Below are positions 7,148 to 44,732 of a stretch of 49,076 nucleotides of DNA, piece by piece; position 1 is the first letter of the stretch; each line of letters opens with the position of its first letter. The notes beneath the pieces are model-generated. The model saw only the letters and a program-made list of their open reading frames with translations, was not told where the DNA came from and did not search any database. Both the position numbers and the translations under genes were made by a program. The DNA is from Desulfobacteraceae bacterium (GTDB taxonomy: Bacteria; Desulfobacterota; DSM-4660; Desulfatiglandales; Desulfatiglandaceae). Where the stretch lies: the NCBI GenBank assembly GCA_030613055.1, contig JAUWMR010000030.1, positions 1 through 49,076 of the forward strand, written 5' to 3'.

Positions 7148-7333
7148 TTGGCGAGAAAATCACTTGTTGTTAAGGCCCAGAGGAAACAGAAATTTTCAAC
7201 CCGTCACTATAACAGGTGCCCCATTTGTGGACGGAGTAGGGCTTTCATAAGGAAATTTGGAATCTGCCGTATCTGTTTCAGGAGCTTGGCATCAAAAGGT
7301 GAAATCCCGGGAGTTATTAAGTCGAGCTGGTAA
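7148..7333 (+). CDS. rpsZ: 30S ribosomal protein S14, zinc-binding (type Z)
   Basis: The 61-residue protein is the short, zinc-binding S14 form. [20 protein letters not shown] supplies the two CxxC pairs, and the end [18 protein letters not shown] is the family's C terminus. It is needed for late assembly of the 30S head. The start is TTG at 7148, preceded by GGGAGGT. Its place between rplE and rpsH is universal. Immediately after the stop begins a heptamer-repeat hairpin. Confidence 0.97.
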
Positions 7334-7336
7334 ATA

Positions 7337-7424
7337 GAAGTAAGCAGAAGGCAGTATGCAGTAAGCAATTTTTAAACTGCTTAGTACCTACTGCCTACTG
7401 CTTAGTCCTTACTGATTACTATTT
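7337..7424. repeat. Heptamer-repeat hairpin between rpsZ and rpsH
   Basis: Four left-arm heptamers (AGTAAGC, AGAAGGC, AGTATGC, AGTAAGC; 7339-7366) are followed by seven complementary-type heptamers (ACTGCTT, AGTACCT, ACTGCCT, ACTGCTT, AGTCCTT, ACTGATT, ACTATTT; 7376-7424), all in register. The two blocks can pair into a stem of around 28 bp with a short A/T loop. No open reading frame crosses it. Confidence 0.75.
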
Positions 7425-7514: not shown

Positions 7515-7913
7515 ATGGCTATGACCGATCCAATTTCCGATATGCTGACAAGAGTCAGGAACGCCCTTAAAGCCTCCCATGAACAGGTGGATGTTCCCAG
7601 TTCAAAAATTAAGATAAATATCGCCAGCGTTCTTAAATCTGAAGGTTATATCAGAAATTTTAGGATTATTTCCGATGGTGGACATAAGCATATTAGAATC
7701 TTTTTAAAGTATGATGAGGATGGGGTTCCCGTCATTGAAGGCCTTAAGAGAATAAGCAAACCAAGCTGCCGTGTGTATGCAGGATACAATGAAATTCCAA
7801 AAGTGCTAAATGGATATGGCATCAATATTATTTCAACGTCAAAGGGGCTCATGACCGATAGAGAGGCGAGCCGAATACGCGTTGGCGGTGAAATACTCTG
7901 TTCATTATGGTGA
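7515..7913 (+). CDS. rpsH: 30S ribosomal protein S8
   Basis: S8 is a central-domain 16S binder and, in E. coli, the repressor of the spc operon. The 132 residues start MAMTDPISDMLTRVRNA and end ISTSKGLMTDREASRIRVGGEILCSLW, the signature block, with only conservative changes. GGAG lies eight bases before the ATG. A second ATG two codons later is possible. The stop is immediately followed by a hairpin that fills the gap to rplF. Confidence 0.96.
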   Translation: MAMTDPISDMLTRVRNALKASHEQVDVPSSKIKINIASVLKSEGYIRNFRIISDGGHKHIRIFLKYDEDGVPVIEGLKRISKPSCRVYAGYNEIPKVLNGYGINIISTSKGLMTDREASRIRVGGEILCSLW

Positions 7914-12937: not shown

Positions 12938-12940
12938 TCA

Positions 12941-13045
12941 ATTTTAGATTTTGGATTGCGGAATTTGGAATGTGGTAATAATAGAAATAAGTGACAAATT
13001 ATTTATAACAAATAAAAAATAACGAATAACGAATAACGAATTAAG
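12941..13045. repeat. Heptamer-periodic AT-rich spacer between rpsK and rpsD
   Basis: The spacer starts with ATTTTAG, ATTTTGG, ATTGCGG, AATTTGG, AATGTGG (12941-12975) and ends with three exact AATAACG units (13018-13038) just before the rpsD ribosome-binding site. Units are seven bases long in both parts. It is not clearly palindromic, unlike the other heptamer spacers here. Confidence 0.65.
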
Positions 13046-38273: not shown

Positions 38274-38510
38274 GTGATTATTGAAATGACTTTGCGGGCG
38301 CAATATCTTTTTTGGTCGGGGCGTACTTTTTTCATTTTCATGTTTTATCTTCACGTCAAAATTTACAGTCTTCACTAATGGGATAATCTCCGAACATTGA
38401 AGCGCTGATACGGGCAAACTCTTGACGTATCCTTCATCGTTGCGCTGCATTGCTAAATATACCAGCCAGTACAAGGACTTCACAATCCTTCGAGGATTAT
38501 ACATTGACAT
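38250..38510 (-). CDS. Hypothetical 86-residue protein, doubtful
   Basis: An open frame starts two bases after the stop of the methyltransferase gene and reads MSMYNPRRIVKSLYWLVYLA near its start. It then becomes polar and lysine-rich and runs into the end of the convergent GT4 gene. No family is recognised. Position immediately behind a gene in an operon is suggestive, but composition in the second half looks non-coding. It could be a decayed reading frame. Confidence 0.3.
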   Translation of the reverse strand: MSMYNPRRIVKSLYWLVYLAMQRNDEGYVKSLPVSALQCSEIIPLVKTVNFDVKIKHENEKSTPRPKKILRPQSHFNNHSQYLLAK

Positions 38511-43386: not shown

Positions 43387-44732
43387 TAGGGTGAAGTCAC
43401 TTTCCAATACCCGTCACGATCGCTTCCAATACGCTTAAGACGTCCCTCGGATTTCAGTTTTGCAATATGCCCTTTTATAGTATTGGGGCTTTTTGCAAGT
43501 GCTTGCGCGATCTCATCGCGTGTCATTTTTGGGTTTTTGCTTAGAAGTTCAATGACTTGCTCACGCGTTCCGGTTTTCTGGGTGGTTTTCTGGGTGGTTT
43601 TCTGGGTGGTTCTGGAAACCGTTACCTTAAAACCGCTCTGAATCTCCTCAAAAGTTGGCTGGGGCAAGTCATATTCTTTAAAAGCCTCGAGCACCCTCCT
43701 GATCCCTGAGCCATATTTTTCGATGATTCCACACTCTTTAAACACTGAGGCGATCTGCTTGTTTCGAATGGAAGGAGAGTAGTCTCCACGGATCAATTGC
43801 TTTATAGTTAACCCATTTGGTAGCTTGCCCGGATTAAAAAACTCAATGCGGTCATCAAAAAACTTTATAACTGAGTCGTTTGAGTTCATGTAATCTCTGT
43901 GTACAATCATATTCACGACGATTTCCCGCAATGCCTCGAGCGGATATTCCCAGCGCTCTTCACGTTGAGCATTACCGGAAATAATGTAGGCCCTTCCCAT
44001 GTGCTTACGGATGAATTCAAGAATTGCTTCAACTTCACTGATAAGGTCCGCTCGAATGGTCAGGCTGTCTTTTATTACAGTTTCACTGGCAAAACGACCA
44101 ATTTCAATAGTGCTTAGCAAGGAATCGCCAGTTGTGAAAAGTAAATAACAGCCATGTGTGATCTGCTCATTATGTAGTAGTTCAAATTTTTTTAGCACTG
44201 TCATGGGGTCATCTATGATTGGATAAGGGCGAACCTTGTTGGCCAATTCGATAAAACGGTTCACTTTGTCCAGTGAGATATCCTCAAGTGTATGACGTTT
44301 GTCCGTATAGTGATCCCAGCTTGAATGGTATGTTTGGAGGTGGAGGTCTGAGATTTCATTGATGCCCATTTTGTGATTGGAGTTTTGGATACGTTTGAAA
44401 TATTTTCCTTTGCAGCTTATGGGTTTAACCGGATACTCGATGATTGTCAGAACCACAATGGTTTTCTTTTTGATTGTGATTGTGGACATATCCGGAACAA
44501 TAGAAGGCGAGGTTTTGAGTTTGATCTGGTTCATCCACTGTTGAAGGGTTTCTTTACCTAACTGAATGCCCTTAAGTTCTCCATTATTCTGCACTCCGAT
44601 GATAATGTTTCCACCTTTCGTGTTAGCAAATGCTGTGAGTGTCTCGATTGTCTCTTTATCAAAAGAGGTCTTGAATTCAACCGACTCTGATTCACCGGTT
44701 GCTATAAGCTGCCAGAATGCTTCCTCGGTCAT
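43386..44732 (-). CDS. Schlafen/AlbA_2-type ATP-binding DNA-binding protein
   Basis: The first 130 residues are an AlbA_2 (Schlafen AAA) domain: GESESVEFKTSFDKETIETL, then AFANTKGGNIIIGVQNNGEL. The central REIVVNMIVHRDYMNSNDSV with FFNPGKLPNG is the GHKL-like ATP-binding C-terminal block of these regulators. A TTQK triple repeat (12-bp DNA repeats) links to a C-terminal winged helix (KMTRDEIAQALAKSPNTIKG). ATG 44732 is taken as start (448 residues); an in-frame TTG upstream overlaps the previous gene. Such proteins are usually transcriptional regulators or defence-linked; the target is unknown. Confidence 0.82.
   Translation of the reverse strand: MTEEAFWQLIATGESESVEFKTSFDKETIETLTAFANTKGGNIIIGVQNNGELKGIQLGKETLQQWMNQIKLKTSPSIVPDMSTITIKKKTIVVLTIIEYPVKPISCKGKYFKRIQNSNHKMGINEISDLHLQTYHSSWDHYTDKRHTLEDISLDKVNRFIELANKVRPYPIIDDPMTVLKKFELLHNEQITHGCYLLFTTGDSLLSTIEIGRFASETVIKDSLTIRADLISEVEAILEFIRKHMGRAYIISGNAQREERWEYPLEALREIVVNMIVHRDYMNSNDSVIKFFDDRIEFFNPGKLPNGLTIKQLIRGDYSPSIRNKQIASVFKECGIIEKYGSGIRRVLEAFKEYDLPQPTFEEIQSGFKVTVSRTTQKTTQKTTQKTGTREQVIELLSKNPKMTRDEIAQALAKSPNTIKGHIAKLKSEGRLKRIGSDRDGYWKVTSP

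Follow-up and report, generated by a model that had tools for sequence, protein, structure and literature searches.

The window analysed here, a stretch of 49,076 nucleotides from a Desulfobacteraceae genome, includes part of the spc ribosomal-protein operon, where the rpsN and rpsH genes are separated by an inverted array of heptamers (window 7331–7424, counted from the rpsN stop codon; Table 1). The array begins 5 nt past the TAA stop, from which it is separated by the spacer ATAGA, and some 90 nt lie between the end of the right arm (7424) and the start of rpsH (7515). The initial annotation had described four forward and seven inverted heptamers in one register filling the gap, and these counts are right on direct reading, the units of the two arms sharing a register and being degenerate rather than identical.

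Table 1. Genes and sequence features at the rpsN–rpsH gap, in window coordinates
Feature	Position	Strand	Basis and remarks
rpsN/rpsZ (zinc-type S14), upstream gene	7148..7333	+	ORF list, translation, CxxC...CxxC S14 sequence; TAA stop 7331–7333
rpsN stop and spacer, TAAATAGA	7331..7338	+	Sequence; pairing possible with the outermost CTATTTA of the right arm
Left (forward) arm, 4 heptamers: AGTAAGC AGAAGGC AGTATGC AGTAAGC	7339..7366	+	Direct reading, TRF, word scan
Loop, AATTTTTAA, 9 nt	7367..7375	+	Direct reading; S23 remnant absent
Right (inverted) arm, 7 heptamers: ACTGCTT AGTACCT ACTGCCT ACTGCTT AGTCCTT ACTGATT ACTATTT	7376..7424	+	Direct reading, TRF, word scan
rpsH (S8), downstream gene	7515..7913	+	ORF list; served to locate the same gap in relatives

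Both period-7 and period-21 arrays were reported by TRF at the hairpin. When a 16-nt two-unit word was searched with up to three mismatches, eight of its nine matches in the window fell at the hairpin; shuffled whole windows gave a mean of 0.75 matches, and none of 100 shuffles reached nine. As a single strand, the region is predicted to fold at −36 kcal/mol with about 33 pairs, which corresponds to z = −4.3 for the trimmed stretch and −2.6 with more flank, relative to dinucleotide shuffles.

The initial annotation was also correct that this is not a terminator, a CRISPR or an ordinary REP. An intrinsic terminator is ruled out by the A+T-rich heptamers, the position inside the spc operon and the absence of a U run after 7424, and a CRISPR array by 7-nt units that stand head to tail without spacers. 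Nor is the window copy a 23S rRNA IVS proper, lying as it does between rpsN and rpsH and not in 23S or 16S rRNA. An Rfam search of the hairpin returned no model at gathering score, only sub-threshold animal miRNA models that reflect a generic hairpin effect, and on direct reading there is no exact target-site duplication beside it. No ORF of the S23 family (PF05635) lies between its arms.

The rpsN–rpsH gap in relatives

A homologous hairpin with a different number of units occupies the gap in the closest genus (G019), and the hairpin stands at the same place in genera g1, g20 and g5, with a fold z of about −4 in three of the four genomes. Within g5, G042 retains it and the copy of its congener G036 has decayed (z = −1.3); the seven differences between these two are unpaired and not compensated. 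One paired change was found in the outer stem, where TAAATAG/CTATTTA in the window corresponds to TGAATAG/CTATTCA in G019. In genus g13 only the forward arm is present; the gap of two species measures 92 nt and that of a third 85 nt, a difference of precisely one unit, so that unit numbers do vary between relatives in one-unit steps. Most other relatives have a plain gap of 36–71 nt. No relative was found to carry S23 in this gap; it is missing from the four genomes with the homologous hairpin and from the three with a single arm, absences that are soft because many of the genomes are draft MAGs. Judged from this comparison of gap sequences, the rpsN–rpsH copy is old, has been passed down in three genera, and can be dispensed with in at least one lineage.

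AGTARGS arrays in the genome and in other phyla

In the window's genome (4.26 Mb in 97 contigs), about ten sites carry clear AGTARGS arrays, among them, with genes named from sequence, the tsf/pyrH gap, the hisF/carA gap and the positions in front of two tuf copies. The rpsN–rpsH gap is thus not the only such site in the genome, and relatives do not preserve its sequence base for base; uniqueness and such conservation were the two properties by which the initial annotation would have recognised a gene-specific structure, and the arrays at other sites uphold its preference for a repeat family. The same AGTAAGC hairpin precedes both tuf copies (L013/L023 at the end of contig C39 and L019 at the start of C12), and tuf gene conversion probably maintains the likeness of the two. 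Elsewhere in the genome, an AGTAAGC array lies in frame within a chemotaxis-receptor ORF and reads SKQYAVSSK (L011, C15:4469–4500).

Arrays were found in 42 of 99 relatives. The pattern AGTARGSAGTARGS-N0-30-SCYTACTSCYTACT, whose chance expectation is negligible, matched on at least 115 contigs, and its carriers among the matches listed include Planctomycetes, Bacteroidota, Chloroflexi, Nitrospinota, Acidobacteria, Desulfobacterales, Mesorhizobium and others, in genome collections that are a non-random sample. An Acidobacteria contig (JACQTK010000123.1; L123, 256–310) carries an AGTAGGC hairpin in the identical rpsN–rpsH gap. Measured with genes called by a simple ORF finder, the median start of the forward arm is +3 nt from the stop of the upstream gene, and 96 of 126 arms start within −40 to +15; in G072 the upstream stop is frequently inside the array. 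The window copy, 5 nt past a stop in an operon gap, fits this class position. Single-arm arrays are common.

Ribosomal-operon targeting was considered and rejected: four of the genome's own arrays are at translation genes, but only 2 of the 115 cross-phylum hairpins listed touch S10, spc or alpha genes, which is about the number expected by chance, and the spc-operon setting is not a special one. A stop-codon cassette, in which stops in all frames would drive the choice of word, was likewise rejected, with 14 occurrences of the TGA-bearing AGTGAGC and 17 of the stop-less AGTGGGC, and with GG only mildly under expectation.

Other repeated sequence was seen around some arrays. In Clostridiales RUG14706 (L154, 7048–7105), about 12 bp from the 3′ end of the gene (GCCTTTCAGCGC) recur as a direct repeat on either side of the hairpin, which may be the footprint of an insertion. 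Other dispersed intergenic repeats, such as GTAGGATGGGTAGAGCGAAGCGAAACCCATC, lie beside arrays in G072 (L254, L236 and others), and the low-complexity intergenic words AAAGTGCCTA, GAGCAAT/GAGCAAC and GGATTTA adjoin AGTAAGC arrays in relatives and in the window's genome (L072, L063, L011).

S23 genes between inverted arrays

In some relatives the arrays lie far apart, inverted, with an ORF of PF05635, the 23S rRNA IVS protein, between them (for example on contig C260 of G057). S23, also annotated as 'four helix bundle protein', forms a common family of genes to which no function has been assigned (PMC4990558). In the 23S rRNA IVS of Coxiella, which is cut by RNase III, two to three tandem heptamers (GACAGAT) stand directly upstream of the S23 ORF in a number that varies between strains (PMC4990558). 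The window's genome has 24 PF05635 matches, 15 of them above the family cut-off, and the S23 genes inspected there lie mostly between inverted short tandem arrays with one word per locus (for example CGTCACT, CTCAGTC, GGGTATT); AGTAAGC flanks were found at none of those inspected.

We compared the flanks of 54 S23 loci, drawn both from this order and from other phyla, with those of 211 control ORFs, scoring inverted complementarity at a threshold of at least 14. Inverted flanks were present at 87% of the S23 loci, against 7% when partners were swapped and 1.4% of control ORFs (p~1e-25), and autocorrelation at lag 7 was 0.365 in S23 flanks versus 0.281 in control flanks, with peaks at lags 7, 14 and 21. 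The array word differs by locus, AGTARGC being among the commonest, and AGTARGC arrays flank S23 in the relatives G012, G023 and G057 as well as in a planctomycete, a Chloroflexi genome and Mesorhizobium. The idea that S23 type sets the word was rejected, since the correspondence holds only between orthologues (>60% identity), with no match of word to clade below 60%. The S23 gene runs in the same direction as its upstream neighbour in 42 of 48 loci; in 37, both neighbouring genes share its direction.

Presence of the arrays also follows S23 at the level of genomes. Among the 99 relatives, none of the 15 genomes without S23 has arrays, compared with 42 of the 84 that have it, and the numbers of arrays and S23 copies per genome are correlated (Spearman 0.54, or 0.49 when corrected for size). 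Within families the correlations are 0.59, 0.56 and 0.14, the last not significant, f2 being the family without correlation. S23 was found in 43 of 47 cross-phylum genomes with AGTARGS hairpins and is absent in four; the baseline for this comparison, S23 in 0 of 14, consists of 14 control genomes only. The initial annotation's reading as a repeat family therefore stands as far as it goes, and the tie to S23 genes and the change of word from locus to locus had escaped it.

The most direct link between the two kinds of locus is in the liv operon, where orthology emerged when array loci and S23 loci were compared after masking and then aligned. The liv gap of G012, G057 and G023 holds an intact S23 gene between AGTAAGC arrays; S23 is frameshifted in G011, internally deleted in G073, and only a stump of it is left in G031. 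The window's genome (C21, ~38351–38385; L050) has at this place an ORF-less AGTAGGC hairpin, AGTAGGCAGTATGCACTCCTTACTTCCCGCTGCCTGCT only. As aligned, the intact, deleted, stump and hairpin forms at one site are direct evidence for the origin of ORF-less AGTAAGC hairpins from S23 elements.

A second case of presence and absence was found in Mesorhizobium. In 9 of 30 species, the gap that separates mmsB from an acyl-CoA dehydrogenase gene holds S23 between (AGTAGGC)n and (GCCTACT)n; the eight S23-bearing gaps that could be parsed are 451–510 nt long, with unit numbers that vary independently. The gap is a plain 22–26 nt in 19 species and 45 nt in one, with one unparsed, and no ORF-less hairpins orthologous to the S23 sites were found in the genus. 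On the mmsB tree the S23 element changes state six times, at least four of which are forced by well-supported branches, and homologous exchange of the segment could be behind some of these changes. The Mesorhizobium S23 protein, which matches PF05635 and TIGR02436 strongly and also matches the solved structure 2GSC, is under purifying selection (median dN/dS 0.077). Avd of diversity-generating retroelements belongs to a homologous four-helix-bundle fold family; the Mesorhizobium protein matches the bAvd and DivGenRetAVD models weakly, below their cut-offs.

The window's genome further contains a dispersed sister family (L412–L422) with ends GTAACTACTCAGGT/ACCTGAGTAGTTAC, the end CAACCTAAATACCTGAGTAGTTAC being common to 11 sites, whose copies occur both with and without S23: one copy of 453 nt with an intact gene, one with a truncated gene, and ORF-less hairpins of 101, 117 and 184 nt. 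Exact 8-bp duplications (aagcagat, gactgatt, gaaaataa) bound three copies, one S23-bearing and two ORF-less. The GTAA ends and 8-bp duplication resemble those of IS66. No IS66 transposase (PF03050) was found in the genome, and IS66 was accordingly rejected as the present-day mover. Target duplication is confined to this GTAACTACTCAGG family; at 113 AGTARGS hairpins there was no signal above the low-complexity background.

Similar broken S23 copies with an internal TGA (L321–L325, L327, L328, L330) were also noted at the ends of contigs C67, C97, C58 and C90 of this genome and on C34. Their recurrence at several contig ends indicates that a multi-copy repeat breaks the assembly there. A 23S rRNA site for these near-identical fragments was rejected, there being no Rfam rRNA match beside them.

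Origin of the rpsN–rpsH hairpin

We consider it likely that the rpsN–rpsH hairpin is an ORF-less member of an S23-carrying, IVS-like class of operon-gap elements. The shared word, anatomy and position, together with the liv example, suggest that this copy is best read as the S23-less form, and by the same analogy we infer that it formerly held an S23 gene; its 9-nt loop has no such ORF, and for this reason the window copy is claimed only as the ORF-less form. The class has close counterparts among known elements. Like the rRNA IVS of Coxiella burnetii, Leptospira and others, its full form has an S23 ORF between long-stem inverted repeats; unlike them, the elements described here lie in gaps of mRNA operons past a stop codon, have arms that are themselves heptamer arrays, and occur in many copies and with many words per genome, and the window copy has no ORF. 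REP/BIME and MITE hairpins are likewise short, dispersed, intergenic and near stops, and are likewise ORF-less copies of a gene-bearing element, but REP lack the 7-nt tandem build, and here the partner that bears a gene carries S23 rather than a transposase. In Geobacter metallireducens, dispersed elements of four or five heptamers are both intergenic and intragenic (PMC2700814); their words, GGACCGG and MTYCTGA, differ from ours and were described as putative regulator sites (PMC2700814). A search of the open-access PMC literature, with subscription papers and preprints outside its scope, found no description of a link between S23 and such arrays, and searches there with the heptamer words returned primer noise only.

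Several other explanations would each account for part of the evidence. A simple heptamer repeat could have grown by replication slippage and quasi-palindrome template switching, with no causal link to S23, whose elements would merely use or create similar sequence. Such growth fits the single-unit changes (92 versus 85 nt in g13, and the window's genome versus G019), the existence of single-arm arrays, the lack of target duplication at AGTARGS hairpins, and the preference of long simple repeats in prokaryotes for heptamer units (Mrazek 2007, cited in PMC4679880). We nevertheless regard it as unlikely, given that many phyla share the AGTARGC word, that arrays are missing from all genomes without S23, that the liv-site hairpin derives from an S23 element and that inverted arrays flank most S23 loci. 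Tandem sites for a translational regulator have been proposed for the TAACTGA repeats of Beggiatoaceae, known also from Cyanobacteria and Bacteroidetes, intergenic 7-nt units of which some are in ribosomal-protein operons (PMC4679880), a setting shared with the window copy. Unlike the arrays here, those repeats are almost only direct, have another word and are read as regulator sites, and S23 goes unmentioned (PMC4679880). Since the word changes from one locus to the next but the 7-nt period and the inversion are retained, and since ribosomal operons are not enriched among the cross-phylum matches listed, this is the reading to which we give least credence.

Hardly more probable is a stem that acts in cis on the spc operon, as an attenuator, mRNA stabiliser or differential-expression element between rpsN and rpsH. 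Its constant place in g1, g20 and g5, the paired TAA/TTTA to TGA/TTCA change of the outer stem between the window's genome and G019, and the low z in three of four homologous hairpins would all be expected of such a function, but the G036 copy has decayed while that of its sister G042 was kept, their seven substitutions are uncompensated, most of the family has no hairpin in this gap, and similar hairpins stand in unrelated operons. Mobilisation in trans as a MITE, by an IS66-like DDE transposase with 8-bp target duplication, is about as improbable: the sister family, with its IS66-like GTAA ends and three exactly duplicated targets, offers a precedent in the same genome, against which stand the lack of a duplication signal at AGTARGS hairpins, the failure to find an IS66 transposase in the genome, and the unconserved outer ends of AGTARGS elements.

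For the S23-carrying class of elements, the sequence comparisons point to the following course of events. The full form is an array of ~7-nt units, an S23/IVP four-helix-bundle gene and the same array inverted. It has the plan of an rRNA IVS, with a long terminal stem and the S23 ORF in the loop, but is located in protein-coding operons, past one gene's stop codon and ahead of the ribosome-binding site that follows. The element would be cotranscribed with its host operon, and we propose that the stem is tolerated because it is located after the stop codon. RNase III probably cuts the stem, to go by the rRNA IVS, with the predicted stem of ~33 pairs in the window as a candidate substrate, and S23 probably binds the RNA or DNA of the element and helps to keep or spread it; it may act as an RNA chaperone, as a reverse-transcriptase partner like Avd, or in another role. 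AGTAAGC-type copies would also reach new gaps. Internal deletion would then remove the S23 gene, so that the two arrays, facing each other, remain as a short hairpin; this may afterwards gain, lose and mutate units. The best-supported reading is of an IVS-like element transcribed within its host operon and tolerated by virtue of a stem that starts at the stop, in which the S23 gene is selected for yet often lost to leave the hairpin. More tentatively, and with considerable reservation, S23/IVP proteins might define a widespread class of selfish RNA-hairpin elements at operon-gap stops, of which the rRNA IVS would be only the rRNA-inserted branch and the heptamer hairpins of MAGs gene-less derivatives, with S23 driving establishment or spread.

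Inverted heptamer arrays in operon gaps give S23 a definite genetic context in many phyla, by which its role becomes testable, and in Mesorhizobium the element is a presence/absence polymorphism in a culturable genus. An origin from S23 elements would supply one source for intergenic heptamer repeats earlier called unexplained simple repeats or regulator sites, and would show that essential ribosomal operons can harbour a hairpin for long periods.

Two further repeats were noted in the window. A second heptamer-bearing gap (12938–13041) has ATTTTGG-like units after the rpsK stop (12941–12969) and ATAACGA units before the rpsD ribosome-binding site (13005–13041), the latter not being the inverse of the former, and at 43572–43611 the 12-nt unit GGTTTTCTGGGT is perfectly repeated in tandem 3.3 times.
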